From a virus, in the IMG/VR virus record IMGVR_UViG_3300046777_002415, positions 1 to 64,000 of that record: 64,000 nt of DNA, one strand, 5' to 3'. Positions 29,821-63,612 of the stretch are shown in pieces. A model generated the notes under the pieces. It did no database searches, was not told the origin of the DNA, and saw only the letters and a list, made by a program, of their open reading frames with translations. Numbering within the stretch: position 1 is the stretch's first letter; every line of letters starts with the position of its first letter. Both the position numbers and the translations under genes were made by a program.

Positions 29821-30675
29821 ATGGCATCACTAGGCGCCGCAAAAACCGGCAAGTTCGCGATCGGCACTGCAGAATTGCGTGTCGGACCCCTCACCCTGGC
29901 TGGCAAGCTGAACCGTAAGCACGGTGTCGGTCTTATCGATTCCGCCACCCTCAACGTCGAGCAGACATCTGTCGACCTGAAGGGCGGCTTCCCCCAGGTC
30001 ATCATGGACACCCAGGTCACCGACCAGTCTGCCCAGATCACTGCAACCCTCCGCGAGTTCTCTCGCCGGAACTTGGGTATCTTATTGGGTCAAGGTCTCG
30101 TCTACGACGATTCCAACGATACCAATGATGCCGTCACGGCCACTACCGCTTCATATACCGCAGGCGGAGCCAGCCTGGCTGTACCCGCAGGTGCCATCGG
30201 TGCTGGGGACACCCAGTTTGCAGGTGCTCCCTGGATTTCAGTGTGGAATCCGGCTGACGCAGCCGAGTCCGTCATCTCCAAAGTCTCCTCCTGCGCTGGA
30301 ACCACTCTGACTCTCGACTCGGAATTTCTCATTCCCGTTGACATGCCGTCAGGGGCTAAGGTCAGCAAGCTGGTACCTATCTCCGTCGGTAACGTCAGCC
30401 AGGTGCAGTATTTCTCCGCTCAGCTGATTACCATCGACCGCCAATCCGGACGTCCGAAGATTTCGAACTTCTGGAAGTTGGCTATCGGTTCCGGCATGTC
30501 TCTGGCCAACAATGCCACTGACTTCGCCTCGACCGAAATGGTGTTGAAGGTCTTGCAGCCGTCGCTGGCGGACTACGAAAAGGTAGGGTCCCCGCTGTAC
30601 CACCTGCGCAACATCATCGGCGCCTACCCGATGGGCATGATGGGCGAAGTCTCCGACGAGTCCATCGCCGCGTAA
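29821..30675 (+). CDS. Major tail (tube) protein
   Basis: 284 aa, beta-rich with Gly/Ala/Thr-rich loops; followed by a strong terminator, as for highly expressed tube genes. Segments such as SVDLKGGFPQVIMDTQVTDQ and FSAQLITIDRQSG fit a tube beta-barrel with an extra domain. It polymerises around the tape measure. Confidence 0.7.
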   Translation: MASLGAAKTGKFAIGTAELRVGPLTLAGKLNRKHGVGLIDSATLNVEQTSVDLKGGFPQVIMDTQVTDQSAQITATLREFSRRNLGILLGQGLVYDDSNDTNDAVTATTASYTAGGASLAVPAGAIGAGDTQFAGAPWISVWNPADAAESVISKVSSCAGTTLTLDSEFLIPVDMPSGAKVSKLVPISVGNVSQVQYFSAQLITIDRQSGRPKISNFWKLAIGSGMSLANNATDFASTEMVLKVLQPSLADYEKVGSPLYHLRNIIGAYPMGMMGEVSDESIAA

Positions 30676-49097: not shown

Positions 49098-49283
49098 TCA
49101 CAATTTTGATCACAGGCCCTTTGAATGGCGCCCCGAACACGATTCGAACGTGTGGCCTTTCCCTTAGGAGAACTATGTATTCCTCTGTAGGCCGCGCCGT
49201 TACTGGGTTCCCTTAAAAATGTGATTGCCGTTTGGCACGGCTGGAGCGCGTAGTTCCGCTGTGATCGTGTGCGGCAATCACAG
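49095..49283. repeat. Five TGTGAT[CT][AG] octamers around attP, probable arm sites
   Basis: On the minus strand TGTGATCA at 49102-49095 and 49114-49107 and TGTGATTG at 49282-49275; on the plus strand TGTGATTG at 49220-49227 and TGTGATCG at 49260-49267. Two lie left of the core and three right. The first pair also forms a hairpin (49094-49100/49107-49113) and the last two an inverted pair (49259-49283). Tyrosine integrases usually have arm-type sites like this. Confidence 0.55.
49126..49170 (-). other. attP core: 3' half of tRNA-Arg(CCT)
   Basis: The minus strand from 49170 to 49126 reads as tRNA positions 32-76: anticodon loop CTCCTAA (anticodon CCT), 3' anticodon stem strand GGGAA, variable loop, T stem ACACG/CGTGT around TTCGAAT, acceptor strand TCGGGGC, discriminator G, CCA. 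No 5' half precedes it, so this is not a tRNA gene but the identity segment that restores the host gene on integration. Confidence 0.88.
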
Positions 49284-50223
49284 AATCAAGCACACCCACT
49301 GCACCCCGCAAATTGCCCGGGGCCAGATGGGCGTAGCGCTCCGTTACCTTGATGGTCGAGTGCCCCAGTATCTCCTTGACCTCGTACAGGGGCACCCCTG
49401 CGCTGACCATCCACGACGCAGTGGTATGGCGGAGCGTGTGCGGGGTAACGTCCGTGAAGCCCGCATTTCTGCAGGCAGTCTCGAATGACCGGCGGAAGTT
49501 CTGGATGCCGTGGAACACCAGCGGGTGGCCTCGCTGTGATTCCAGCGTCTCCACCGCGACATCGGTCAGAGGGATCGTGCGGGATTTCTTGGCCTTGGTC
49601 GTCTCGGCCCGGAGTGTGATCAATCTGCGGGGCATGTCCACATCAGACCATCGAAGTGCCATCAGCTCCCCACGCCGCATGCCAGTGCTGACTGCCAGAA
49701 TCACGAAGGCCCTCAGATGCCCGTCACAGAGCGATATGAGCCGGGCGTACTCGTCACCCGTCAGCCACCGCAGTTTCCCTTCTGGCTCACGCAGCTTCAG
49801 CCCTGACACAGGGTTCGGGATGTGGGTGCCGTGATCAATGTTGTAGCAGTTGATGGCTGCCGAGATCATGACCAACTCTTTGTTAATCGTGCCTGGCGCG
49901 GCCCCCTCGGCCTGCCGGCGCTTGACGTGTGAGCGGAGTAGAGAGGGTGACAGGTCCCGGCCCCAGGTAGGGGCGAGACCTGTCAGATGGCGGGCAGTGG
50001 ATTTGTTCTGTGGGGTCAGCCGGGTAGACAAGTACTCGGTCAGGACCGTATCAAGCGTAACGTCGCCCCGGTGCTGGGTTTTGTTGCGGTGGGATTCGCT
50101 GCGGAGCTTCTGCTCGAGCGCCTTGGCTTCTTTGAAGTCGGTCCCAGCAGATCGCCTAACTTGCTTGCCGGTGCGGGGATCGTAATAGCTGATCCACCAG
50201 ATGTTGTTTCGTTGGTAGGGCAT
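49213..50223 (-). CDS. int: Site-specific tyrosine recombinase (integrase)
   Basis: 336 aa. N-terminal AP2-like arm-binding region (IWWISYYDPRTGKQVR), core-binding domain (about 52-145), catalytic domain with Arg183 (STGMRRGEL), Lys210, His262-x-x-Arg265 (PHTLRH), His288 (LGHST) and nucleophile Tyr297 (ERYAHL). It integrates at the tRNA-Arg(CCT) core 43 bp beyond its stop. Overlaps the putative excisionase. Confidence 0.95.
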   Translation of the reverse strand: MPYQRNNIWWISYYDPRTGKQVRRSAGTDFKEAKALEQKLRSESHRNKTQHRGDVTLDTVLTEYLSTRLTPQNKSTARHLTGLAPTWGRDLSPSLLRSHVKRRQAEGAAPGTINKELVMISAAINCYNIDHGTHIPNPVSGLKLREPEGKLRWLTGDEYARLISLCDGHLRAFVILAVSTGMRRGELMALRWSDVDMPRRLITLRAETTKAKKSRTIPLTDVAVETLESQRGHPLVFHGIQNFRRSFETACRNAGFTDVTPHTLRHTTASWMVSAGVPLYEVKEILGHSTIKVTERYAHLAPGNLRGAVGVLDSVIAAHDHSGTTRSSRAKRQSHF

Positions 50224-50372
50224 CCATTGATGATAAAGGCCTCAAGGTCGGATTCGCAAACCCGGATCACCTTGCCCTCCACAAAGGCTCTGAGCCGGCC
50301 CTGTCGGACCCACAGCCTGACCGTGGTCCTGCCGACGTTGAGGCGCTCGGCGACCTGTTTGACGGTCATCAT
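50040..50372 (-). CDS. Putative excisionase (MerR-like HTH) with a long overlap into int
   Basis: 110 aa. Residues 1-50 form an excisionase/MerR-type winged HTH (TVKQVAERLNVGRTTVRLWV). The remaining 60 residues are Ser/Thr/Pro/Lys-rich and disordered, and are encoded entirely within the first 184 nt of int in another frame. It would direct recombination towards excision. GGGGT upstream of the double ATG; coupled (ATGA) to the gene before it. Confidence 0.7.
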   Translation of the reverse strand: MMTVKQVAERLNVGRTTVRLWVRQGRLRAFVEGKVIRVCESDLEAFIINGCPTNETTSGGSAITIPAPASKLGDLLGPTSKKPRRSSRSSAANPTATKPSTGATLRLIRS

Positions 50373-52373: not shown

Positions 52374-52394
52374 GGGCCGGTGTGCTGCCGGCCC
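52374..52394 (-). promoter_or_regulatory. Conserved-loop intergenic hairpin 1
   Basis: Perfect 7-bp stem GGGCCGG/CCGGCCC with a 7-nt loop; the transcribed (minus) loop is CAGCACA. It lies 10 nt beyond the SbcC stop and just before the ribosome site of small protein B. Same loop as hairpins at 62140 and 62689; no T-tract follows, so it is not a simple terminator. Confidence 0.7.
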
Positions 52395-52404
52395 AGGTAG
52401 GTTA

Positions 52405-54576
52405 TCAGAGGGCGATTACGACATCAGCGTTGACGGCATCACCTTCACGATGGGTGACGTAGATCACTTGGCTGCCCAGGCTCTGCAGCATCCCAGCGAT
52501 CCGGGCCGCATTCTCGGAGCTGGCATCGGCGGTCGGTTCGTCCAACAGCAACATGTGTTCGTCACCGTAGAACACCCTGCTCATGGCGATCCGGAGTGCC
52601 AGCCCGACCAGCGAACGCTGGTAGCCAGACAGCTCGGTGACTGCCACGCTGTCGCCTTGCTCGTCGACCATCAGCTCGCCGTCCTCGCGGTAGACCCGAG
52701 ACAGTTCTCCCGACGTCGTGGTCGAGATCAGGTGGGAGGCGTAGGCCAGCATGTTGTCCCAGAGCTCGATCATCAGGTCGGCCCGGGACTTCCGCAGCCA
52801 GACCTGCAGACGCTTGCGGAGATCGATCTCGGTGATGAGGCACTTCCGGGACTCCTGCGCCTTCTCTGCTCTTTCCAAGGCATCCTCCGATGCTAACAGC
52901 CGGATTTGGTTGCCGGCGACTTGCGTCTGCAGTAGAGATTGCCGGTCCTGTATGGCCCGGACTTGCTGCACCGACTGGTCCAGCAGCAGCCTGAGCTTGA
53001 CGATGTCCTCCACCGGCGGCAAAGCCAGTAGATCAGCTTCATGCTGCTGCAGGGCCATTAACTCTTCAGTTACTCTTTGCTGAAGGTCAGCCAACTTGGC
53101 TTGCAGAGAAGTCTGAGTGTTGACCCGGCTGGTCATGTCAGCCCAAGTGGCGCGGGCCCGGTCCATTGCGACCTTGGACTCCATCGTCGCCGAAGCCAGG
53201 TCCTCGATCGAATGGAAGCCCTGCAGGGCTGCGACGAAGTCGGCCTGAGCGTCTTCGAGCTGCTGGGTGATCTCCGCAAGTAGGTCGGCGGCGCCAGGGT
53301 TGTAAGCCTTCCGTAATTCCGCGACCTCTGACAGCTTGGTGCGGAGCGGGGTCTGGGCATCGGACCATTGCTGGTAGAGGGCCTCATAGGCGTCAACGGC
53401 CTCCTCTTGGCGCTTGATGGCAGCCAGGCGCTCTTCCTCATTGAAGGGGCGTTGGCACTCGTGGCAGACGCTCTTGTCTACCGCATCACGGGCAGATGCC
53501 AGCATGGCTTTCGCGGCGTCACAGGCGAGGTCCAGCCGGGTGCTCACCTCGCTCAGTTGCGCCAACTCTTCCTGCGCCTGCTGCAACTTGCCAGCCACGA
53601 TACTCGAAGCCCCTACCACTTGGTTTAGGTGCTCCTGCTTCTGAGCTAGTGTGTTGATGCGGGCGGACAAGGTCTGGGCCTGATCCAGCCGCTGTTTCCG
53701 GTGAGACCATGTCTGTTGCATGGCCTCGATATTGGCGGCTCCGATGTTGGCCCGCTCGGCCAGATCCGGTTCGAAGCCTTCCAAGGTGATGGAGGTTTCC
53801 TGAATACTGGCGTTCAGCGCCTTGACCCGGTCCTTCCGGGAGGTGATGGCGAAGTTCATCTGCTCCAGCTTGTTCGAGAGCGACTGGGCCTGCTCGTACC
53901 GCTGGCGCAGGTTGGTCTCTGCATCCTGCATGTTCCGCAGCTCGTTGGTGGTTTCCTTGAGAGACAGGTTGTCATCCTTGATCAAGGTCTGGTACATGTC
54001 GACCTCCTCACGCAGCTTGCCAAGGTCCGCGACCTCACCAAGGCCAGTCAACTGCCCTTCCATGCTGGTGACGTCCTTCCCGACCATGTCGAGGATCTTG
54101 TCGACCAGATCGCTCTTGGCCAGCCGCTCGATGGTCTTCTGCAGCGCCGTGGCGCCGAACTCCAGCAAGGCCTGGGACTGCCCCTGCTTGCTATACATCA
54201 GCAGTTGTAAGTCTGCAGCCGACATGCCGTAGGCTTCCTCGATCAGCTTGATGACCGGGGTTGTGCCGTTGGCCAGCAGGGTGCCGTCCTTGGCCCAGAC
54301 CTTGGCGCCCTTCAAAGTGCGCTCGATCTTGACGTCCCCGTGGACCGGCAGGCTGATTTCGAGGGTTGCGGTGGTGCTGCCCTCTGCGCCTCGGGTCGGG
54401 ATGCGCTCTACCTTGTGGCCGGTAGCGGTCGGCCCCAGCAGAGCGAAAAGGATCCCCTTCAAGATGGTTGACTTGCCTTGGGCGTTCTCACCCGTGACGG
54501 CTGCCAGACCGTCGGAGAAATCCGCCCGAAAGTCGTGGTGCTTCTTGAAATTCTCGAGATGAATTGAGCGGATCAT
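52405..54576 (-). CDS. sbcC: SbcC/Rad50-like SMC-type ATPase
   Basis: 723 aa. Walker A GENAQGKST (29-37), Q-loop near YSKQGQ, long coiled-coil arms with a zinc hook CHEC (Cys371/374), ABC signature LSGYQRSLVG, Walker B MLLLDEPTAD (Asp679/Glu680) and switch His in VTHREG. Shorter than bacterial SbcC (about 1050 aa), like T4 gp46 and other phage forms. With SbcD it processes DNA ends for recombination-dependent replication. Its ATG overlaps the SbcD stop. Confidence 0.92.
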   Translation of the reverse strand: MIRSIHLENFKKHHDFRADFSDGLAAVTGENAQGKSTILKGILFALLGPTATGHKVERIPTRGAEGSTTATLEISLPVHGDVKIERTLKGAKVWAKDGTLLANGTTPVIKLIEEAYGMSAADLQLLMYSKQGQSQALLEFGATALQKTIERLAKSDLVDKILDMVGKDVTSMEGQLTGLGEVADLGKLREEVDMYQTLIKDDNLSLKETTNELRNMQDAETNLRQRYEQAQSLSNKLEQMNFAITSRKDRVKALNASIQETSITLEGFEPDLAERANIGAANIEAMQQTWSHRKQRLDQAQTLSARINTLAQKQEHLNQVVGASSIVAGKLQQAQEELAQLSEVSTRLDLACDAAKAMLASARDAVDKSVCHECQRPFNEEERLAAIKRQEEAVDAYEALYQQWSDAQTPLRTKLSEVAELRKAYNPGAADLLAEITQQLEDAQADFVAALQGFHSIEDLASATMESKVAMDRARATWADMTSRVNTQTSLQAKLADLQQRVTEELMALQQHEADLLALPPVEDIVKLRLLLDQSVQQVRAIQDRQSLLQTQVAGNQIRLLASEDALERAEKAQESRKCLITEIDLRKRLQVWLRKSRADLMIELWDNMLAYASHLISTTTSGELSRVYREDGELMVDEQGDSVAVTELSGYQRSLVGLALRIAMSRVFYGDEHMLLLDEPTADASSENAARIAGMLQSLGSQVIYVTHREGDAVNADVVIAL

Positions 54577-55616
54577 TGTGCTGCCTCTCTGTAGTGCTGC
54601 CAGATTGAATGAAGGTCAGTGCTTTCCAGTGCGGCGGAAATGCGTGAAGGAAGATCGAGGGATCGGCACACGGCATGATCCACTTCAGGAACGATAGAAT
54701 CAGACTGGACATTGTTTCTCACCATCAACAAGTTCGGCCACTCCTTCCAGAGTTTGGTTATGGCCTGGGCGATGTTTGGAAGTTGTTCGCTCGGCACCGT
54801 GCCAGTCACTTCGATGAACTGGACCAGCTCATCCATGCGTACCGAATCTCCATATCGCAACTCCCGGTACCCATCAGCCTTGCTCCAGATCGGATGCTGG
54901 ATGAACTGCTTCCCGTCGAACTCCCACAAAAACTTGTCTCCCACATCGCTGAAACTGGTCGGGTGGGTGTTGCCGAGGATGATCAGCCGACCGTTGTGCA
55001 GCGTCCGCGGCATGTGCTCGTGGCCCAGCAGGACGTAATCGAAGGTCTCCAGCAGCTTCTCGGCCCTTTCTGCTGTGAGGTTGAGGCTGGCGTCGTTGTG
55101 GATCAGGCCGGAGTTGTAGTTGCAGTGGAGGCAAAGGATGCTCGTCTCATCTCGACCAACGAAATCAGTAACCTCATCGAGCGAAATATCAAACAACTCC
55201 TGTGTTGCCATGTGGGGTACAAGATATACGTAGGCGCCACAGTCCCCTACGAAATCGAACCCGGGCTGGCTAACGCTGCCCAGAACGATCGGGCTACGTT
55301 CATCACAGTCGCCTGGGAGCATATCGGCAAGTAGTTGCAACGATCCGAGCTTCCCCTCCCTATTTGGCAAGTCATGGTTACCTGCCATGACTCGACAGCA
55401 CTCCGCAGCAATCCTGTAACCCTGCAGGATGCCTGCTTCGTCATTGGATTCTGTATCGAATAGATCACCTAAGCAGTAAGGCGAGGTGCTGCAGAGGCTA
55501 AGGGCTTTGGTTGCTTGCCTGTATAGGGCCTCCCTCAACCTCAACCGCGAGGCCTGCGTCGTGTGTGATGTCCGCATCAATCCGAGATGCGGATCGCTGA
55601 AAAACCAGATGCTCAT
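54573..55616 (-). CDS. sbcD: SbcD/Mre11-like nuclease
   Basis: 347 aa from the ATG overlapping the previous stop; an upstream open extension of 115 residues is read in the wrong frame over the regulator gene and is rejected. Metallophosphatase motifs: SDPHLGL (Asp8/His10), CLGDLFDTES, AGNHDLPN, LHCNYN, LGHEHMPR. Manganese-dependent end-processing nuclease, subunit of the complex with SbcC. T4 gp47 analogue. Confidence 0.9.
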   Translation of the reverse strand: MSIWFFSDPHLGLMRTSHTTQASRLRLREALYRQATKALSLCSTSPYCLGDLFDTESNDEAGILQGYRIAAECCRVMAGNHDLPNREGKLGSLQLLADMLPGDCDERSPIVLGSVSQPGFDFVGDCGAYVYLVPHMATQELFDISLDEVTDFVGRDETSILCLHCNYNSGLIHNDASLNLTAERAEKLLETFDYVLLGHEHMPRTLHNGRLIILGNTHPTSFSDVGDKFLWEFDGKQFIQHPIWSKADGYRELRYGDSVRMDELVQFIEVTGTVPSEQLPNIAQAITKLWKEWPNLLMVRNNVQSDSIVPEVDHAVCRSLDLPSRISAALESTDLHSIWQHYREAAQ

Positions 55617-56200
55617 TGTTGTGCTCCCAAGGTCTTGAGTAGAACCCCGTTTCCACGGAGTTCGATGTGGCCCTCGTCCTTGAGTTTGGTGATCATCCGT
55701 GACACGTACTCCTTGCCAAGCCCCGCTCTCTGGGCCAGCTTGGTACGGCTCAGCGCCGGGATGAATATCCCGCCACTCTCTTTCTTCCCGCGGTTCTCCG
55801 CGATCTCCCTGATCAACATGCTGATGCGCTTGTCGCCCGGCAGCGCGGACATCATGGACTGCTGCAGGACTCGGTTCTGCTGCTGCGAAGCAGAACGCAG
55901 CACCTGACGGAGTGTTTCGGGGTCCGATAGACCTGCTGCCGAAAGGAACCCCACCACGCAAATGTCCTCAGCCCGCCAGGTAATCGAGGCAGAGGGCGGG
56001 CACTTGCAGTCGAGTGTCTCAACGCCAAGCCACTCGCCGTCGTAGACGAGGTGGGTGGAGTAAGCGTCGGGGTGATGCTTGTCCAGATAGGTCACGGCGA
56101 CGATACCGCGTGACAGAAACCCGACCGTCGGTGCTGCGGTCGGGCAGTGAAGGATGACGTCCCCTGGGACGAAGGTTCTGTAGTCGGCGTCGTTCAACAT
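55613..56200 (-). CDS. Crp/Fnr-family transcription regulator
   Basis: 195 aa from ATG 56200. Residues about 8-110 form a cupin-like sensor domain (FVPGDVILHC; LSRGIVAVTYLD; VYDGEWLGVE), with no obvious cAMP-binding Arg/Ser motif. Residues about 138-190 are the winged HTH (LSRTKLAQRAGLGKEYVSRM, then KDEGHIEL). Cysteines CKC near 78-80 could sense redox or metal. Lies between nuclease genes, overlapping SbcD and the resolvase. A phage-encoded Crp-like protein within a repair operon is unusual. Confidence 0.85.
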   Translation of the reverse strand: MLNDADYRTFVPGDVILHCPTAAPTVGFLSRGIVAVTYLDKHHPDAYSTHLVYDGEWLGVETLDCKCPPSASITWRAEDICVVGFLSAAGLSDPETLRQVLRSASQQQNRVLQQSMMSALPGDKRISMLIREIAENRGKKESGGIFIPALSRTKLAQRAGLGKEYVSRMITKLKDEGHIELRGNGVLLKTLGAQQ

Positions 56201-56619
56201 GACTGTGCTGCGAAAGTGAACATGGAATCGAAATCGTCGGTGGTGCCCTGCCAAACTGGCTTCTTTTTCCCCTCAGCCCTCACCACCTCCTCCCCTCGGT
56301 ACCAAGCCAGCAGGTTCTTGGCCCGGTCGGCGTAGATGAAGGCGGTGACATGGCCGGCCCGCTGCCAGAGGCGGTGCTTGCCGCACTGCCCGGAGTCCAG
56401 CAGGGACTTGAGAGACGCTGATTTCTCGGTGCTCTTGGCCTCAATCAGGATCGCCGGCTTCTCTGGCAGCAGCCAGAGGAAGTCCCCGGGCTGGGCCGGC
56501 ATGTAACCGCCGGCCGACTTCGAGTCGTAGAAGCGGTGGAAGAACGACTTATGCTCGCACTGCCACCGGTACAAAGCCTCCTGGATGTGCTTCTCCAGCC
56601 ATTTGCCGTCATTGGCCAT
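56194..56619 (-). CDS. PD-(D/E)xK nuclease, RecU/Holliday-resolvase-like
   Basis: 141 aa. FYDSKSAGGYMPAQPGDFLW followed by AILIEAKST gives the GxD...ExK catalytic core. It may resolve branched DNA before packaging. GGAGG 5 nt before the ATG; overlaps the exonuclease by 11 nt and the regulator by 7. Confidence 0.75.
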   Translation of the reverse strand: MANDGKWLEKHIQEALYRWQCEHKSFFHRFYDSKSAGGYMPAQPGDFLWLLPEKPAILIEAKSTEKSASLKSLLDSGQCGKHRLWQRAGHVTAFIYADRAKNLLAWYRGEEVVRAEGKKKPVWQGTTDDFDSMFTFAAQSC

Positions 56620-57346
56620 GGTGGCCTCCGAGGATGCTCAAGGCAGTGAAGCGGACGTCCGGATCCATGTCAGGCTGCGTGAACCACTTCAGGCTGGACG
56701 GCCTGAGTGAGGAGAACGGCATGCCCTTGTGCTTGCCGAACGGCACCAGACGCAGTTGCTGCGGGGCTCCAAGCCATGTCGCCATGCCTTCCAGAGTCTT
56801 CTGGGTCTGCTTCATGTAATGGTTGAGCAGCAGCCCAACCATCCAGCAATCGGCAAGTCCATCGTGAGCCTGCTTCGGCAACTCGGTGTCCAGCACGTAC
56901 CGCTCACCGACCAGATGGCTCAGGCGGTGATTGGATGCGATCGGATCCAGGCGCCGAGCTGCCCACAGGGTGTCGATCATCCGGTTGTGCGGCCATCCCG
57001 GCAGATGCCGGGCCACGATCGGCACGTCGAATTTCACGATGTTGTGGCCGACGAGGAAGACATTGGCGTCGTGCAGCATGGCGAACTCGTTGACGGTTTG
57101 CCGCCACCTCTGTGCCACCGTGCTGGACGGCTGCTTGCCTGCAACCCTCTCCTCGCTGATCCCGTGCGTGTCGAACGCCCCTTGCGCGATCGGCCGGTTC
57201 GGCTTGGCCAGCTCGTCGAAGACGACCGCCGTGCTGGGGTCACCCTCGACGAACATGACCGAGCTGAGCTGGACGAAATCGTCCTGCTTGGGGTCGGCGC
57301 CAGTTGTTTCTGTGTCGAAGCAGACTGCGATGGACTTCCTTGTCAT
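56609..57346 (-). CDS. DnaQ-like 3'-5' exonuclease
   Basis: 245 aa from ATG 57346. ExoI FDTETTG (Asp11/Glu13), ExoII VGHNIVKFDVPIV, ExoIII HDGLADC: a DEDDh exonuclease over residues about 1-175. The last 60 residues (LVPFGKHKGMPFSSLRPSSL) are the DUF3820-like tail seen in phage exonucleases. Proofreading or recombination role. Confidence 0.88.
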   Translation of the reverse strand: MTRKSIAVCFDTETTGADPKQDDFVQLSSVMFVEGDPSTAVVFDELAKPNRPIAQGAFDTHGISEERVAGKQPSSTVAQRWRQTVNEFAMLHDANVFLVGHNIVKFDVPIVARHLPGWPHNRMIDTLWAARRLDPIASNHRLSHLVGERYVLDTELPKQAHDGLADCWMVGLLLNHYMKQTQKTLEGMATWLGAPQQLRLVPFGKHKGMPFSSLRPSSLKWFTQPDMDPDVRFTALSILGGHHGQ

Positions 57347-57350
57347 AGTG

Positions 57351-57797
57351 TCAAACCCTCCCAGTTGAACCGAAGCCACCTTCTCGGTTGCTGGCACTCA
57401 GCTCCTCAGCTTCTGCCAGATCGACGCGGTAGAACGGTAGGAACATTGCCTGACAGATGCGCTCACCAGGGTTGATGTAGTAGGTATCGTCGCCGCGATT
57501 CCAGACCGAGACCTTTACCTCGTCCCGATAGTCTGGGTCGATCACCCCGATCAGGTTACCGAGGACGACGCCGTGCTTGTGCCCAAGGCCGGAGCGCGGG
57601 GTCAGCAGCATGACGATCGATTCCGGCACCTCGAAGATCAACCCGGTCGGCAGCAGAATGGTCTGCCCAGGGGCGAGGGTGGTTCTGGCGAAGGTCGCTG
57701 CCCTCAGATCGATGGCGGCGGCACCGGCAGTAGATCCGGAGGGGAGGGGGTGGTGTTCGTAGAACGCTGGGTCGATGACTTTGACGTTGATCTTCAT
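57351..57797 (-). CDS. dut: dUTPase
   Basis: 148 aa with all five trimeric dUTPase motifs: AAAIDLRA, PRSGLGHKHG, GVIDPDYRDEVKV, GERICQAMF, REGGFGSTG. Hydrolyses dUTP to dUMP, keeping uracil out of phage DNA and feeding dTMP synthesis. Standard length. Confidence 0.97.
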   Translation of the reverse strand: MKINVKVIDPAFYEHHPLPSGSTAGAAAIDLRAATFARTTLAPGQTILLPTGLIFEVPESIVMLLTPRSGLGHKHGVVLGNLIGVIDPDYRDEVKVSVWNRGDDTYYINPGERICQAMFLPFYRVDLAEAEELSASNREGGFGSTGRV

Positions 57798-58234
57798 GCC
57801 CTGGCACCCTCCGGTACCACCAAAAGCAGGTAGGTTGTATCCTCTGTTTGTATTACCTCGTGTTCGACCTTAGTCGTACGGAGATTGCCCAAGGAGATAC
57901 CCATTCCTTCCTTTAATGTCATGTGCAAGATTGGTTTGCTCTTTAGCTGTCCTATCTTTACGCCCTTGGCTAAGTCTGAGTCCGTCTTCTTCCGGTAAGC
58001 GAAAGTATTCGAGCTTGGGTCCACAAGAGGCGTAATTTTGTCTCCCAATTTCCAACCGAGTTCTTCGAGTACTTTTTCGCCTATTTCTACACGCAGAAAA
58101 TCCCCTTGCTTTCCCCGCCTTGTGATAGCGATTCTGACGTCTATTGACCTATCCACAGTCGCGGGATAGCCGCCCCTTGTTAGATAAAAGGACGAGGCAG
58201 GCGGAAACCTTGAAACATCAAATTCTTGAGTCAT
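57794..58234 (-). CDS. Hypothetical protein, 146 aa, AT-richer than neighbours
   Basis: Beta-rich (RIAITRRGKQGDFLRVEIG; TTYLLLVVPEGARA) and charged; no recognised motif. AAGGAGC before the ATG. Visibly lower G+C and different codon choice from the dUTPase and HU genes either side, so probably a later insertion into the operon. Confidence 0.6.
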   Translation of the reverse strand: MTQEFDVSRFPPASSFYLTRGGYPATVDRSIDVRIAITRRGKQGDFLRVEIGEKVLEELGWKLGDKITPLVDPSSNTFAYRKKTDSDLAKGVKIGQLKSKPILHMTLKEGMGISLGNLRTTKVEHEVIQTEDTTYLLLVVPEGARA

Positions 58235-58251
58235 AACTGCTCCTTAGTTTC

Positions 58252-58524
58252 CTAGTTCACCAGATCCTTCAGCGCCTTCGCCGGCTTGAACACCACCGCC
58301 TTGCTGGCCGGTATCTGGATCGTCTGGCCGGTGGCGGGGTTGCGGCCGGTGCGGGCTTCACGGTCCTTGACGTGGAAAGCGCCGAAGCCGTGGATGGTTA
58401 CGTCTTCTCCGACTGCCAGGTAGTCTGCGATCCTGCCGAATACAGCATCGAGCACCCGGCCGGCACTGGCTTTGCTGACATCAATTTCAGTGGTGATTGC
58501 GTTTACCAGTTCTGCTTTGTTCAT
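58252..58524 (-). CDS. HU/IHF-family DNA-binding protein
   Basis: 90 aa, full-length HU: MNKAELVNAITTEIDVSKAS, HGFGAFHVKDREARTGRNP (beta arm with the intercalating Pro of the RNP motif) and VVFKPAKALKDLVN. Bends DNA in replication or integration; could substitute for IHF at attP. Preceded by a 6-bp hairpin (58544-58549/58555-58560). Confidence 0.95.
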   Translation of the reverse strand: MNKAELVNAITTEIDVSKASAGRVLDAVFGRIADYLAVGEDVTIHGFGAFHVKDREARTGRNPATGQTIQIPASKAVVFKPAKALKDLVN

Positions 58525-58566
58525 CTCAGTTCTCTCATTGATTGCCGGGGACCGCCCGGCGCGGGT

Positions 58567-61500
58567 TCATGCTGCCTCGGCGTGGCCCAAGGCCTTGTCG
58601 ATGGCGTAATTGATCAGCTCCGGCGTCGGGTGCGGCCCGATCTCGACCTGCGTCCCGAAGTTCGGGCCCAGTGAAGGCTCTGCCCAGAGAGGGCAGGGCA
58701 GACCCGGGATGCCTTGGGTCATGATGGAGTGGACCTCCATGATCAGGCTTGGCGCCTTGCTGCTGTGGCAGGAAAACACCAGCTCGTCATGGATCGGAGC
58801 AAGGAACTGAGCCCCGTGACGCTGGAAGGTTTTGCGCTGGTAGAGGGCGGTCAGGACGACCTTCAAATAGTCGGCGCACACGCCTTGGATCAGGGAGTTC
58901 AAGGCCGACCGCTCAAGGTAGCCGCGCATGCCTTCATCGTTGGTCAGCAGCTTGCTGAACAGATGGCGCCGGGAACCGTAGAGCGTCGTCAGGTAACCCT
59001 GGCTGTGCAGCTGCTCGATGGACTTCTCGCGCCAGTCCTCGTACCCGGAGTACAGCTTCTTCTTGGCAGAGAGGTAGTCCTTGGCTATCTCCGGGTCACA
59101 GATCAGCTTCCGGGCCAGCTTGGTTGGGCCTCCACCGTATTGGCTGAGGAAGTTGACGCCCTTGGCATCGCCGCGGATCTTCTTGTAGCTCTTGGCGTCG
59201 GGGTGGGTATCGTCGTGGCGGGCTTCCTCGAACTGCTCGTAAGGCACCCCGGCAATCCCGGCAGCCGTCAGGCTGTGGATGTCCCGCAGTTCTGATGTCC
59301 GGAAACGCTCGACGAACTTGGGGCCCAGCTGTTCGATCATCCAGTCGGGCAGCGTCTTGAGGACGTTGCCGTCGATGTAGCAGCTCAGCATCTCAATGTC
59401 CCGGGATAGCCCGGCGCCGACCCGCAGTTCCTCGCCAGCCCAATCGATTGAGCAGATCAGGTCGTGGCCCTTGAGCGGGATCACAGCGTTCCGGAACTTG
59501 ATGCCGTCGCCGCGCTTCGGCATCTGCATCAGATTCGGCGAGCTGCCCGACATGCGCCGGGTTTCCGTGCCGCAGCTGTTGAGCTGGGGGTGGACCAGAC
59601 CGGTCTTGGGGTGCTGCCACAGCGGGTACTTGCTGTAGAAGTTGCTGTTGCGGGTCTGCGCCTTCTTGGCCTTCAGCAGGCACTCCAGTGCCTCACGCTT
59701 CCACGAACCTTCCGGTGCGTCCGTGGCCATCGCTGTCAAGATCGCGTCCTCGTTAGCCTGTGCTCCGCCTTCCAGCCCCAAGTCAGCGCGTTCCTCGGTG
59801 ACATCGAAGCTGCGTATCCGGAGCGGTAAGGCCAGCATGCCGTACAGCAACGCCTTCATCTGCAGAGGGGAGCTCAGCGACAGTTCGCTGCCGACCGTTT
59901 CGTACCGCTTGTCATCGGGCGTGGCCTCGACTTTAACCTCGCGGCAGAGCTCCATTAGTCTCTGGACTTTGGGCTTCTCGGTGCAGTTCTTCTGGTGCAG
60001 ACAATCCACTAGGTCACGAATTAGCCCCAGGATACGCTCGGCTCGACTGTCTGGGTGGTCTAGGCCCAGTGTGGCTTCCTTCCATGCCACCCAGGCCTTA
60101 TTGGTAGTCTTCTCCAGAGCAGGGAGCCCAAGGTACTCAAAAACCTCGCTGAACTGCACTGCCGTCATCTTGAAGTCGATCGGCTTCTCGACCCGTTCCA
60201 TATCCCGGTACGTCACCCTCTCCTCGATCTTGAGGGTCAGGGCGGCGATGTCCTCAGCCATCCTGCTTTTGGCGTCGTTCTCTTCGAGTTGCTTGGCCTT
60301 GACCGCCGCGGCGTACTTGGCATCGATCATCTCGCGCTCGACTTCCAGCAGGTTGCGGATACCCTCCTGCAGGACCTCGTCCGTCTGGTTCTCCCGCAGC
60401 AATTCACGGAGGCGGGCCATGTTGGTATCGAACACCTCTTGGTCCTCGATCCGCAGTCGGTCGAGTTCCTGCCAGTCGATGTCGATGCCGGCGAGGTAGG
60501 CGTCGGACAGCAGATAGATCGGCGGGAATTCATTCTGTCTGACGAAGTCCCAGGTGCCTTCCAGCAGCAACTGGAGCTTGAGGAATTCATACAAGTGGGC
60601 CGTGACCAACGGATCATCGGCGCCGTACTGCAGGACGTGCTCAGCGCTGTAGTCGCGCATCGCTGTCCCCTTCTCGATGACGTCGTGGTAGTGCAGCTGC
60701 TTGTAGCCAAGGATCCGGAGGCTCATATCCTTCAGACCGCTGGACTCCTGCTCGTCGACATGCGATGACATCACTTTGGTGTCATGCGCCGGCGGCAGAT
60801 CACGACCGAACTGATTCTTGTAGATGGTCTGTTCGAAATACAGGTTCTGGATCACCAGCGGGGTGCCCGCCGGAATGCAATCGATCAGCTTGGGGATGAA
60901 CTCGGCCGGCAGGTTGTTGTTGCCGGCGTGGTCGACCGTCGCGTAGAAGGTGTGCTCCAGGTTCTTGCCGAACGTGAAGCCGGCGCCGGTGATGGTCGAG
61001 GACAGCATGTCGACGTACTCACGACCATTAGCTGCTTCGATGAACGCATCGGTAACAGGTGCCGAGGTCTCCCAGTCGATCGAGATGAAGGGCGACTCGG
61101 CGAACAACTCGCGGGCCTGGGCCAGAGTGCCTTCCTCATCGTCCAGGGCCGAAGCGTCAAGGATGAAAGGCGGATTGGGCATGAACGGCGCCAGAGTCTG
61201 GCGCAGGTCCTGACAGCCGACGGCATCCAGCAAGGTGCCCAGTTTGTCAGCCCGGGGCAGGGCGGTGGACCACTTCGGAGTCAGGTAGATGCTCTTGCCA
61301 CTGATCTCGGTCTTGCTATTGACGAGGCTGGGGTGGAGGATCGCTAGGTCCCAGCACATTATCCAGTTTTGCAGGTCTCGGAAGATCATCTCCAGTAGCG
61401 GATCGCTACCTGACTCAGCCAGCTTTTTCAGCAGGTTGTAGCCGGCACCGGTCAGCATGTCCTGCAGCTGCTGCAGTCCGTCGTCGCCGTAGGTCTCGAC

Positions 61501-62118
61501 CAGCTTGAGCCACTTGGCAGGACCGAAGCCGTTGACACCCTTGTACCCGTCCGACGAATCGCCGACGAGCGACTTGTAGAGGGCGACCCGGTTGAAGGGG
61601 ACCTCGATGTCCTTGTCCTTGAAGCAGTCGATGAATTCGTGGCCGATGTTCAGGACGACGCTGTCCGATCCAAGCTGAGCCAAGTCGCGGTCGACGGTGT
61701 AGATCATGGAGGCCGGCAGATGCTTGGCCATCCAGGCGATCACGTCATCTGCCTCGACCGTGTCGACGACGACCTGGGTGATGCCCAAGTATTTCAGCAG
61801 CAGCTTGGTATGCTTGATGGTCTCGCTGATGGCGAACTTGAGCTCTGGCGATTGCTCGCGCTCCTTGCGGGCCTTCTTGTAATCAGGGAAGCGGGTTTCG
61901 CGGTAGAGGTTACCGCCGTCCCAGACAGCCACGACTTGCTTCACCCTGAAATCCTTCAGGATCGGGAGCAGGACGGAGTTGACGAGGTTGTCGATAGCGT
62001 GGCCGGCGGTGTTGACCGTCTTGCCAGTGATTGAGTCACGGTCACCGTCTCTGTCGGTGCCGGAGTGCAGGCTGCGAAGCGCAAGCCCACGAATATCCAG
62101 TAGGACGTAGCTGTCCAT
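58567..62118 (-). CDS. polA: DNA polymerase I, three-domain
   Basis: 1183 aa (E. coli Pol I is 928). 5'-3' exonuclease/FEN domain (about 1-300: VWDGGNLYRETRFPDYKKAR, DTVEADDVIAWM, VGDSSDGYKG). 3'-5' exonuclease with intact Asp348/Glu350 (SIDWETS). Polymerase motif A SIDWAGEELRV (Asp892), motif B RGDAKGVNFLSQYG (Arg982, Lys986), motif C IHDE (about 1109-1112). About 200 extra residues lie between exonuclease and palm (around 560-780). Replicative enzyme of the phage. GGAGG precedes the ATG. Confidence 0.93.
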   Translation of the reverse strand: MDSYVLLDIRGLALRSLHSGTDRDGDRDSITGKTVNTAGHAIDNLVNSVLLPILKDFRVKQVVAVWDGGNLYRETRFPDYKKARKEREQSPELKFAISETIKHTKLLLKYLGITQVVVDTVEADDVIAWMAKHLPASMIYTVDRDLAQLGSDSVVLNIGHEFIDCFKDKDIEVPFNRVALYKSLVGDSSDGYKGVNGFGPAKWLKLVETYGDDGLQQLQDMLTGAGYNLLKKLAESGSDPLLEMIFRDLQNWIMCWDLAILHPSLVNSKTEISGKSIYLTPKWSTALPRADKLGTLLDAVGCQDLRQTLAPFMPNPPFILDASALDDEEGTLAQARELFAESPFISIDWETSAPVTDAFIEAANGREYVDMLSSTITGAGFTFGKNLEHTFYATVDHAGNNNLPAEFIPKLIDCIPAGTPLVIQNLYFEQTIYKNQFGRDLPPAHDTKVMSSHVDEQESSGLKDMSLRILGYKQLHYHDVIEKGTAMRDYSAEHVLQYGADDPLVTAHLYEFLKLQLLLEGTWDFVRQNEFPPIYLLSDAYLAGIDIDWQELDRLRIEDQEVFDTNMARLRELLRENQTDEVLQEGIRNLLEVEREMIDAKYAAAVKAKQLEENDAKSRMAEDIAALTLKIEERVTYRDMERVEKPIDFKMTAVQFSEVFEYLGLPALEKTTNKAWVAWKEATLGLDHPDSRAERILGLIRDLVDCLHQKNCTEKPKVQRLMELCREVKVEATPDDKRYETVGSELSLSSPLQMKALLYGMLALPLRIRSFDVTEERADLGLEGGAQANEDAILTAMATDAPEGSWKREALECLLKAKKAQTRNSNFYSKYPLWQHPKTGLVHPQLNSCGTETRRMSGSSPNLMQMPKRGDGIKFRNAVIPLKGHDLICSIDWAGEELRVGAGLSRDIEMLSCYIDGNVLKTLPDWMIEQLGPKFVERFRTSELRDIHSLTAAGIAGVPYEQFEEARHDDTHPDAKSYKKIRGDAKGVNFLSQYGGGPTKLARKLICDPEIAKDYLSAKKKLYSGYEDWREKSIEQLHSQGYLTTLYGSRRHLFSKLLTNDEGMRGYLERSALNSLIQGVCADYLKVVLTALYQRKTFQRHGAQFLAPIHDELVFSCHSSKAPSLIMEVHSIMTQGIPGLPCPLWAEPSLGPNFGTQVEIGPHPTPELINYAIDKALGHAEAA

Positions 62119-62139
62119 GATGCCTCCAAGGAAAGCCTT

Positions 62140-62166
62140 CCCGGTCTGGAGTGCTGCCAGACCGGG
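62140..62166 (-). promoter_or_regulatory. Conserved-loop intergenic hairpin 2
   Basis: Perfect 10-bp stem CCCGGTCTGG/CCAGACCGGG around a 7-nt loop; transcribed loop CAGCACT. Between the 23-aa peptide stop and the polymerase ribosome site (GGAGG about 10 nt beyond). Confidence 0.75.
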
Positions 62167-62175
62167 TCGGTGGGT

Positions 62176-62247
62176 CTACTTATTCAGGTATCGCCAGGCG
62201 ACGTATCCTGAAACTGCAATTGCCAGAACGTCGAGTAGCAGGCACAT
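62176..62247 (-). CDS. 23-aa hydrophobic peptide
   Basis: MCLLLDVLAIAVSGYVAWRY then LNK. The ATG is coupled to the TerB-like stop (TGATG). Single membrane helix with a basic end. Translation is plausible but unproven; it may serve mainly to couple ribosomes into the hairpin region. Confidence 0.4.
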   Translation of the reverse strand: MCLLLDVLAIAVSGYVAWRYLNK

Positions 62248-62666
62248 CAGGCCAGTCCGTACTCTTTCGGATCCAGACGCAAAGTGCGGCAGACCTCCAT
62301 GATGACGGTGTGCTCCTCCGGCTCGATCTCACCATCAGCCTTGGCGATCGCCAGCATGGTGAGCAGAACCTCCTGCGCGTGGTCGTCGTTGTCGGCGATG
62401 TCACTGATCTCGTCCAGCATCTTCTTCTTGCCGATGCCGAAATCCGCGTCGAGGATGTTTTCGAAGCGGGTGATCGTCTTCGTGATCTCCCGGCCGCGGA
62501 AGGCTTCAAGCAGGTCATTGGCTTGCAGGAGCTTGGTCAGCTTGTCAGTCTCGGAACGCTCGATGGTTCCATCTGCTGCCGCCGTGAGCAAAGCCCCGGC
62601 GACAATGGCTTCCATCACGTTTTTGTTCTGGACTTTCTTGGCTTTGTTGAACAGGTTTCCAAACAT
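62247..62666 (-). CDS. TerB-like protein
   Basis: 139 aa. Two helical halves with acidic metal-binding loops: AAADGTIERSETDKL and AKADGEIEPEEHTVI, the hallmark of the TerB/DjlA superfamily. The N-terminus (MFGNLFNKAKKVQNK) is basic and amphipathic. Phage TerB proteins are common in replication regions; exact role unknown. GGAG upstream. Confidence 0.85.
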   Translation of the reverse strand: MFGNLFNKAKKVQNKNVMEAIVAGALLTAAADGTIERSETDKLTKLLQANDLLEAFRGREITKTITRFENILDADFGIGKKKMLDEISDIADNDDHAQEVLLTMLAIAKADGEIEPEEHTVIMEVCRTLRLDPKEYGLA

Positions 62667-62688
62667 TTTGATACTCCAAAGGAAGATA

Positions 62689-62713
62689 CCAGCCCGGGGT
62701 GCTGCCGGGCTGG
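62689..62713 (-). promoter_or_regulatory. Conserved-loop intergenic hairpin 3
   Basis: Perfect 9-bp stem CCAGCCCGG/CCGGGCTGG with a 7-nt loop; transcribed loop CAGCACC. It begins 10 nt past the stop of the gene at 62724 and lies upstream of the TerB-like ribosome site. Confidence 0.75.
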
Positions 62714-62723
62714 CTTATTGATA

Positions 62724-63482
62724 TTACGCAGCCTGATTCTGGGGCTGGTAATCACCTACTGCTTCAAACGTCCAAGGCTGGAACGTCCGGGTGCCGGTCT
62801 TGATCGGACTACCCACTCCTACCTTGGTGACTACCTGCGGGACCCTGCGGCCCTTGGTGACACCCAGTACCTTGGAGTACCCAGCAAACTTCTTCGCAGA
62901 AGTCTGTGGAATTGCCAGCATCGCTACCGCGCCGTCGTGCTCCCCGCCGATGATCATCGCCGCGGCCTCCAACGTATTCCTCACCACCGGCGAATGACCC
63001 TCTGCCTTCCACCGGGCGATGACCTGTGCAACAGGTTCACCGGCTGTGGTGACGGCGTTGGGGTTCTTGGTGATGTCCTCGTAGGACCAGACAGCCTGAG
63101 CGTCCGAACCTTCTTCCTTGGAGCGGTGGATGTACACCTTCTTCACCTGGAAAATGTTGCAGGTGAAATCGCTGCCCATCTTCTCTTCGTCGAACCAGAA
63201 GATGCCGCTGTCGAGCTTGACTCGGGAAAATGAGCCAAAGCCGATCTCGTCATCGAGGTCGTCGAAGCCGTCGTTGAACTGGGAGGCCTGGACAGGCAGA
63301 GGCTGTACCGCCGGAAGCGCATTGGCTGCCGGTTGCAGATAACCTGTGGTCTGGGGGACAGACTCCTCGTACGAGGCTACAGGAGGGAGAGGCTGCTCAA
63401 CAGGTGCTGCCGGGGCGGCAACGGTCGGGTTGGTGAGCGGGTTGGTGAGCGGGTTGACGGGCTGGTTTCTTAACAGAGTCAT
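62724..63482 (-). CDS. Replication-region protein, 252 aa, unknown
   Basis: The N-terminal 70 residues are Pro/Ala/Val-rich and disordered. A folded core of about 150 residues (GFGSFSRVKLDSGIFWFDEE; CNIFQVKKVYIHRS) follows, then an acidic/Gln tail. AAGGAG 6 nt before the ATG. Position beside helicase and polymerase would suit a single-strand-binding or annealing protein, but no diagnostic motif is visible. Confidence 0.65.
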   Translation of the reverse strand: MTLLRNQPVNPLTNPLTNPTVAAPAAPVEQPLPPVASYEESVPQTTGYLQPAANALPAVQPLPVQASQFNDGFDDLDDEIGFGSFSRVKLDSGIFWFDEEKMGSDFTCNIFQVKKVYIHRSKEEGSDAQAVWSYEDITKNPNAVTTAGEPVAQVIARWKAEGHSPVVRNTLEAAAMIIGGEHDGAVAMLAIPQTSAKKFAGYSKVLGVTKGRRVPQVVTKVGVGSPIKTGTRTFQPWTFEAVGDYQPQNQAA

Positions 63483-63612
63483 AATAGTCTCCTTGGTCGT
63501 TTACATGTGTCAGCTCTTCGACGTGCTGTCAGGCTGCTGACGTGGCCTACTTCTGGTGCTGCAGATTCGGCGTGAGTTGAATCTAACAGCACCGGAATCG
63601 GTTGACAAGAGG
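63483..63612. other. Intergenic, 130 nt, with a weak relative of the conserved-loop hairpin
   Basis: TCTG/CAGA (63552-63555/63562-63565) encloses GTGCTG, like the three strong hairpins but with only 4 bp. A TTGAC/GTCAA inverted pair lies near 63602-63616. No gene seen. Confidence 0.3.

Follow-up and report, generated by a model that had tools for sequence, protein, structure and literature searches.

Why should several hairpins between the genes of one phage operon keep the same loop on stems that differ in sequence? The question is raised by a 64-kb window (the whole stretch of DNA analysed, 64,000 nucleotides), which forms part of the 79.5-kb phage contig G000. An earlier note had claimed three such hairpins in it, and the claim is correct in coordinates, strand (minus) and pairing, the stems of 7, 10 and 9 bp being perfect and the loops reading CAGCACA, CAGCACT and CAGCACC. 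The hairpins (loops in square brackets) and the genes around them are listed below; gene ends throughout are those of our own simple gene caller.

52374..52394, minus strand: hairpin GGGCCGG[CAGCACA]CCGGCCC, in the gap that separates the SbcC-like gene from a 62-aa ORF, with the stop 10 nt behind it and the next start 19 nt ahead
52405..54576, minus strand: gene for an SbcC-like exonuclease subunit (PHROG 28217 / 77), upstream of hairpin 52374
58567..62118, minus strand: gene for DNA polymerase I with a 5' exonuclease domain (PHROG 17 / 107), downstream of hairpin 62140
62140..62166, minus strand: hairpin CCCGGTCTGG[CAGCACT]CCAGACCGGG, 9 nt past the 23-codon ORF and 21 nt ahead of the DNA polymerase I gene
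62176..62247, minus strand: 23-codon ORF MCLLLDVLAIAVSGYVAWRYLNK, overlapping the terB stop (read directly from the sequence)
62247..62666, minus strand: terB-like gene, flanked by hairpins 62689 and 62140
62689..62713, minus strand: hairpin CCAGCCCGG[CAGCACC]CCGGGCTGG, 10 nt past the 252-aa gene and 22 nt ahead of terB
62724..63482, minus strand: 252-aa gene (P0004), whose homologues adjoin a SNF2-type helicase in most of the group

The minimum-energy folds of the three gaps are dominated by the hairpins (compared with dinucleotide shuffles, z is -2.3 to -3.3). A count of three is right for the window and too low for the contig, as the leftward early arm of G000 holds eight intergenic hairpins with a CAGCA-core loop, five of them beyond the window (contig 72319-72350, 74057-74080, 75044-75067, 77858-77878 and 78697-78721). 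Their stems of 7-12 bp are mostly unrelated to one another; the third pair counted from the loop is T-A in hairpin 62140 and C-G in the remaining seven copies. The proposed weaker relative at 63552 is no family member, since its CAGCAC sits within a long stem, GGTGCTG...CAGCACC. Occurrences of GGCAGCACYCC at 59608 and 35964 were also rejected, being coding sequence with 3-bp stems.

CAGCA-loop hairpins are carried by two further phages, G001 and G014, which like G000 are uncultured bacterial viruses, all three very distant from one another. Their DNA polymerases are about 41-43% identical and form a monophyletic group in the polymerase tree (support 100/100), with branches of about 0.8 changes per site across which the CAGCA loops are conserved. 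As both phages were found after the loop rule had been set, they provide an independent test of it. With stems of at least 7 bp, G001 has six hairpins with the loop CAGCAA and G014 has seven with the loops CAGCAC(A) and CAGCAT(A); family-wide, CAGCA-core loops of 6-8 nt top stems of 7-14 bp, and all the hairpins of G000 (8), G001 (6) and G014 (7) lie on the early-operon strand. The GG/CC pair that was said to close every loop does so in G000 only, A-U, C-G and other pairs also closing loops in the relatives. A gene for a tyrosine integrase, or for an integrase homologue, is present in each of the three genomes.

Neither P0004 nor the polymerase found any relatives as a lone protein query, a two-sequence polymerase alignment returned G001 again and nothing further, and bacterial genomes gave distant matches only. 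The cultured named relatives UAntarctica, Lana, PMBT3 and SHOU24 were inspected, and all are without the CAGCA loop. Scanning viral contigs for the pattern CCCGGCAGCACNCCGGG gave 53 matches, mostly single and apparently due to chance or unrelated, a scan that was uninformative because the stem is not conserved. For searching 2 Mb, the information in 21 positions without stem conservation is insufficient, and where loop lengths were unequal the hairpin arms were misplaced by MAFFT; family members were therefore detected by an explicit stem-plus-loop scan instead of a covariance model. When all of G000 (the window and the remainder of the contig), G001 and L111, a contig discussed below, were scanned with the curated families of Rfam 15, none scored as high as its gathering cut-off, and we found no published description of a CAGCA-loop hairpin element.

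Orthologous gene junctions show most directly what has been kept. After the P0004 homologue the junction is orthologous in all three phages, and its hairpin has the loop CAGCACC in G000, CAGCAA in G001 and CAGCACA in G014 on unrelated stems. The junction ahead of a gene found only in the clade bears a hairpin in all three, and that ahead of a 241-aa gene in G000 and G014, in both cases with the loop kept and the stems unrelated. G000 and G001 also share the junction after SbcC, where the G001 copy, AAGTAAAGGCAG[CAGCAA]CTGCCTTTACTT, is orthologous to hairpin 52374. That two diverged relatives set this loop on stems of unrelated sequence, at orthologous junctions and in transcript orientation, supports the claim of the earlier note that selection acts on an RNA structure and that the loop is recognised. 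The outgroups bear other hairpins at a shared junction, so a hairpin occupied this position before the CAGCA loop arose. Conserved genes with other loops, named in the earlier note as evidence against its reading, are what the 12 outgroup genomes present, and this does not occur within the clade. The CAGCA loop is thus a clade-specific trait and not one common to all relatives.

The enrichment of the loop is strong by several measures. CAGCA forms the loop of 21 of 50 intergenic hairpins in the early arms of the three phages versus 2 of 171 intragenic ones (Fisher 1e-13), and of 0 of 485 intergenic hairpins in the outgroup set (n=12 genomes). Among intergenic occurrences of CAGCA, 23/40 are flanked by a stem of at least 6 bp versus 121/8202 for other 5-mers, while none of the nine intergenic occurrences of the reversed orientation, TGCTG, is stem-flanked. 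Twenty order-4 Markov genomes each held at most one CAGCA-loop hairpin on the same strand versus seven observed, and in them any loop 5-mer was common to at most two hairpins. This loop enrichment is the actual test; as the hairpins were selected for pairing, our table of stem pairs is descriptive only and was not used as a test of structure. Other loops also recur genome-wide, GGACWWGTCC in G004 and G005 and GGTCTSAGACC in SHOU24; these are perfect palindromes, more like operator DNA, and were set aside.

Placement relative to the genes is equally regular. In 18 of the 21 family members, all in transcript orientation, a start codon lies 16-34 nt downstream, and only 6 of 26 other hairpins have one at 15-35 nt (p=2.5e-5). 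A position a few nucleotides after a stop codon, as the earlier note had it, is found for most members, and the constant feature is the distance to the following start. An apparent Shine-Dalgarno lies within the 3' arm (TAGGAAA) of the hairpin at G001 30517-30536; in most copies it lies outside, where a hairpin could not act by simply occluding it.

The same loop letters with unrelated stems before many early genes suggest that some factor reads the loop and controls these genes together. Our best explanation, to which we give about an even chance, is that a loop-recognised RNA element coordinates early genes post-transcriptionally via a trans-acting factor. The hairpins would be copies of one RNA element within the polycistronic early mRNA of a phage clade, with stems that would serve solely to present the loop and whose sequence may drift. 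The loop CAGCA(M/H) would be read by a factor acting in trans, in all likelihood a protein that binds RNA, and the downstream cistron would then be translated from its start, and/or degraded, at a changed rate, creating a shared regulon in one phage. Post-transcriptional action is the most likely because, at many early and replication genes, the element has the sense of the transcript and immediately precedes the ribosome-binding site. The sequences themselves show the recurring structure, the constant loop, the orthologous sites with unrelated stems, the closeness to start codons and the confinement to early arm, strand and clade; binding of the loop by a factor, the protein nature of that factor, the level at which it acts (translation or stability) and whether it raises or lowers expression are what we infer. 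In the constant loop, the drifting paired stem and the repetition at genes thought of here as regulated, the hairpins match what is expected of loop-recognised RNA operators, a class they would belong to by mode of action.

One candidate for the factor is a protein of 149, 144 or 137 aa that is found in these three phages only and whose own gene is preceded by a hairpin in all three. Pfam and PHROG hold no match to the 149-aa protein, and in the PDB none reached E<=0.001 (best E 0.007). Its structure was predicted and used in fold searches, which returned two viral proteins with E below 0.001 and query TM-scores of at most 0.47, no informative relative. A small gene that takes this place in the outgroups proved unrelated in a profile comparison. 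It is conceivable, if rather doubtful in its full form, that this is a phage RNA regulon not described before, in which a clade-specific protein, possibly the 149-aa one, would bind CAGCA loops in many early and replication leaders and set their expression jointly, each acquired gene gaining its own hairpin copy. An example would be terB, whose product is 90% identical in amino acids to the copy in L111, a contig otherwise unrelated; the 23-codon ORF also has a counterpart there, MCLLIDIIVIVGLVGAILYTKYKTN, downstream of terB.

The earlier note offered a boxB-like antitermination site, a site for a translational repressor and a signal for RNA processing. No decisive choice among them follows from the data, and classical boxB fails on loop sequence and size. 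The main rival, which we consider unlikely, is control of transcription, the hairpins being weak or conditional terminators or pause sites whose loop loads an antitermination or termination factor on the growing transcript, in the manner of boxB and N. Sites recurring along one long early operon fit processive antitermination, and a stem followed by a T-run stands at the P0004-homologue junction in the outgroups PMBT3, G004, G005, G007, G009 and SHOU24 and also in G001. Three family members are terminator-like, which likewise favours a role in transcription; at G014 19961-19995 a CAGCACA loop even tops a textbook terminator. However, a T-run of at least four follows only these 3 of the 21 family members and none of the window hairpins, which are thus not intrinsic terminators; the view that these are not plain terminators stands for the three named hairpins and for 18/21 of the family. 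Terminator-like copies are no more frequent than among the other intergenic hairpins of these arms (Fisher p=0.49). What stays constant is the spacing to the start codon, for which a terminator has no use, and where these genomes do have strong U-tract hairpins, their loops are different (G000 74088; G014 22247, 46015 and 49126). Less probable again is mRNA processing or end protection, where an endonuclease or a ribonuclease-blocking factor would read the loop and early mRNA would mature into stabilised, hairpin-ended units. Compact operons with a single hairpin at each cistron boundary, set between a stop and the next start, would suit it, as would the lack of a U-tract in most copies and the retention of structure while stems drift, but simple end protection does not require a fixed loop and we know of no nuclease that reads CAGCA in a loop.

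Spread without function is somewhat more doubtful still. A hairpin cassette might have been copied along with new genes, as two G000 hairpins bracket the acquired terB and small ORF (G014 has one there) and the inner four pairs are mostly CCGG/CCGG, in G000 alone; or CAGCA might be just a stable loop to which mutation or folding tends. Against this, the loops have been kept across polymerase branches of about 0.8 changes per site. The loop is not explained by copying, since stems are unrelated between genomes and, in G001 and G014, within the genome, and it is not generally favoured, as it is never used in the 12 outgroups, which have many intergenic hairpins. The least probable reading is a DNA-level element, its loop being recognised while the DNA is single-stranded or cruciform; the replication machinery might, for instance, use it as a site for priming, nicking or recombination. 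SbcCD-type nucleases act on hairpin DNA in other systems; genes for such nucleases are in the same arm, and every copy lies in the replication/early arm in a single orientation. Because all early genes run one way, this role keeps a small probability, but placement follows start codons and gene junctions, a DNA site needs no 16-34 nt spacing, and the late arms are nearly without loop hairpins (0/20 intergenic in G000, 1/18 in G014).

Phage mRNA operators are mostly known singly, gene by gene. If post-transcriptional control through the loop holds true, a multi-gene RNA regulon would have been recognised from sequence alone, with one loop before 6-8 genes kept through deep divergence while stems drift. 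Such elements are invisible to ordinary alignment and absent from Rfam, and the rule for finding similar ones would be to seek loops common to the intergenic hairpins of one genome, rather than conserved sequence. For finding the factor, the CAGCA hexa- or heptaloop supplies a short, specific ligand.

Several known phage elements resemble the family in part. The lambdoid boxB (nut site) is likewise a small phage RNA hairpin, with a short stem, a GNRA-like pentaloop (GAAAA/GAAGA type) recognised by the phage N protein and one site per operon, whereas the CAGCA hairpins have 6-8 nt loops, 7-14 bp stems and many sites before start codons; the boxB loop is not theirs. The intergenic C(UUCG)G hairpins of T4 also set a recurrent loop on differing stems, but UUCG is a widespread stability tetraloop, and the CAGCA loop differs from it in 21/21 copies, is clade-specific and has 6-8 nt. 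In T4-type phages, PeSLs are mobile stem-loop cassettes between genes that contain an early promoter. As in our phages, the repeats of cluster K mycobacteriophages are confined to the non-structural genome half, at the starts of some genes: SAS is a 13-bp sequence, GGGATAGGAGCCC, at translation starts, and ESAS are conserved 17-bp inverted repeats with a variable spacer, their function being unknown (PMC3203893). ESAS keep the arms and vary the spacer, the CAGCA family keeps the loop and varies the arms, and the SAS sequence is not the CAGCA element. The translational operator of T4 gp43, the DNA polymerase, is similar in that a hairpin precedes the ribosome site of a phage mRNA, with a UAAC loop kept between the relatives T4 and RB69 and read by a phage protein (PMC3014915). 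That operator is a single autoregulatory site for one gene, whereas the CAGCA family has another loop, at least 6-8 sites per genome before many genes and, as yet, a candidate binder only.

A scan of the whole record, G000 (79,498 bases, of which the window covers 1-64000), identified eight intergenic hairpins whose loop has a CAGCA core and whose stem is at least 7 bp long. The three in the window, for which an earlier note had described an invariant loop on different stems, are present exactly as it stated. Its proposed weaker copy at 63552 is not a member and was rejected because CAGCACC there folds into the stem. Loops of the eight are CAGCACA/T/C, CCAGCAC, TCAGCA (or CAGC closed by U-A) and ACAGCAAA. 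In order-4 Markov genomes, CAGCA-loop hairpins on the G000 hairpin strand numbered zero or one per genome, and any one loop 5-mer was common to at most two hairpins.

The same loop is found in two diverged relatives, which like G000 are metagenomic contigs. G001 (L089; 42.6 kb, 46% GC), found by a helicase-based search, is 41% identical to G000 in polymerase and 45% in helicase, and its intergenic hairpins carry the loop CAGCAA on unrelated stems. G014 (L166; 86.5 kb; helicase 48%, portal 54%) came from the last viral scan, made once the loop rule was already fixed, and has seven such hairpins plus weaker ones.

Hairpins with a CAGCA loop in the three genomes
G000, window 52374, 62140 and 62689, minus strand
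G000, contig 72319, 74057, 75044, 77858 and 78697
G001, CCCACCACTTGA[CAGCAA]TCAGGTGGTGGG
G001, AAGTAAAGGCAG[CAGCAA]CTGCCTTTACTT
G001, AGAAAGGCCCTGA[CAGCAA]TCAGGGCCTTTCT
G001, CCCATTGG[CAGCAA]CCGATGGG
G001, GATGGGTCTG[CAGCAA]CAGACCCATC
G001, 30517, 7-bp stem
G014, 1460, 13036, 18900 and 19961, loop CAGCACA
G014, 24155, loop CAGCAT
G014, 26483, loop CAGCATA
G014, 37908, loop CAGCAC

In the polymerase tree the three group as a single clade (support 100/100) whose end branches measure about 0.8 changes per site, and the helicase tree concurs (91/99). Searches of IMG/VR, each using just two short peptide patterns, found no further members. Known relatives are the Pseudomonas phages UAntarctica, Lana and PMBT3 and Vibrio phages such as SHOU24, at 30-32% polymerase identity to G000.

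The early and replication genes of G000 occupy a minus-strand arm at about 49-79 kb (SbcD, SbcC, DNA polymerase I, the terB-like gene, AAA/UvrD-type and SNF2-type helicases, and a protein of 943 aa whose primase match is weak), and the plus-strand arm encodes terminase, portal, protease and tail genes. A tyrosine integrase encoded at 49213-50223 (Pfam E 3.5e-33) suggests a temperate phage. Integrase homologues are also present in G001 and G014, and in the G000 region 49213-50368 the gap directly upstream of the integrase gene appears to encode a small helix-turn-helix protein that may be an excisionase. A 202-aa protein at contig 65412-66020 (L007, outside the window) resembles by eye an HNH/AP2-type homing endonuclease; G001 has a partial homologue at another place.

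Across the three early arms, CAGCA lies in the loop of 21 of 50 intergenic hairpins; among intragenic hairpins the count is 2 of 171 (Fisher 1e-13). Since CAGCA was picked on G000, G001 (6/8) and G014 (7/29) serve as an independent test. Outgroup genomes have many intergenic hairpins with other loops, none of 485 in 12 such genomes carrying CAGCA, and in the late arms the loop occurs in 0/20 (G000) and 1/18 (G014). Intergenic CAGCA is flanked by a stem of at least 6 bp in 23 of 40 cases, versus 121 of 8202 for other 5-mers; in the opposite orientation, none of nine intergenic TGCTG occurrences is in a hairpin. With gene boundaries from a simple gene caller written for the analysis, 18 of the 21 family members lie 16-34 nt before the next start, versus 6 of 26 other hairpins at 15-35 nt (p=2.5e-5).

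Orthologous junctions with a CAGCA hairpin
After the homologue of P0004, the 252-aa gene upstream of terB: G000 62689, G001 34778, G014 13036
Before the clade-only 149/144/137-aa gene: G000 72319, G001 40642, G014 18900
After SbcC: G000 52374, G001 24342
Before the 241-aa gene: G000 74057, G014 19961

At all four junctions the stems are unrelated and the CAGCA core is kept. Most outgroups also have a hairpin after the P0004 homologue; its loop is different in every case and it frequently has a T-run, so the position predates the CAGCA loop.

When a loop stays constant on drifting stems, in orthologous places and in transcript orientation, this marks an RNA hairpin that is recognised through its loop, as these appear to be. 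Because they lie close to start codons and mostly lack a U-tract, the most likely action, at about an even chance, is post-transcriptional: the hairpin, read at its loop in the transcript, would control the downstream cistron. Transcriptional control ranks next and is rather unlikely; in its favour, one of the G014 copies is a textbook terminator, and the hairpins of outgroups resemble terminators at one junction. T-runs of at least four follow 3 of 21 family members versus 7 of 29 other hairpins (p=0.49). One candidate for the loop-binding factor, guessed by context, is the clade-only 149/144/137-aa protein. Its gene adjoins a hairpin in all three clade genomes, and its predicted structure is beta-rich (model confidence 80); no known family or solved relative was found for it. 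The small gene of the outgroups at the same place is unrelated to it.

Other repeats and signals were also observed. The terB-like gene has a copy with 90% amino acid identity in L111, an otherwise unrelated phage contig. In both (window 62176-62666; L111 1622-2120), a short ORF that follows and overlaps the terB stop encodes a small, possibly membrane, peptide (MCLL[LI]D...), and in L111 its own repeated hairpin CTCGCCAGCCGCGTYAGYGCTGGCACTTTAA brackets the pair. The perfect palindrome GGACWWGTCC, with 13 and 16 copies in records G004 and G005 (L119-L122, L131-L134), several in intergenic gaps, resembles operator DNA more than an RNA hairpin. SHOU24 (L013) has nine copies in 50 kb of GGTCTSAGACC, often as TTTGGTCTSAGACCAAA, several within intergenic gaps. 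Contig G000 74105-74149 (L007) looks by its sequence like a regulatory junction: repeated operator-like palindromes (TCGGTAGATACCGA and TTCGGTAAATACCGAA) are followed by a U-tract terminator, AGCCCGG[CAAGT]CCGGGCTTTTTT, and then a CAGCA-loop hairpin. An extended ribosome site precedes many early-arm starts (ACCTTGGAG in G000, CCCTTTGGAG in G014).

Scans of G000, G001 and L111 against Rfam gave no match to the hairpins, and a literature search found no paper describing such a loop; the hairpin is not described in the Lana paper or in the PMBT3 paper, which reports only promoter and terminator prediction. They differ from intrinsic terminators, boxB, ESAS and UUCG hairpins, each in a tested feature. 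Their closest working likeness is probably the T4 gp43 operator, a loop-read hairpin upstream of a ribosome site (PMC3014915), but repeated over many genes.
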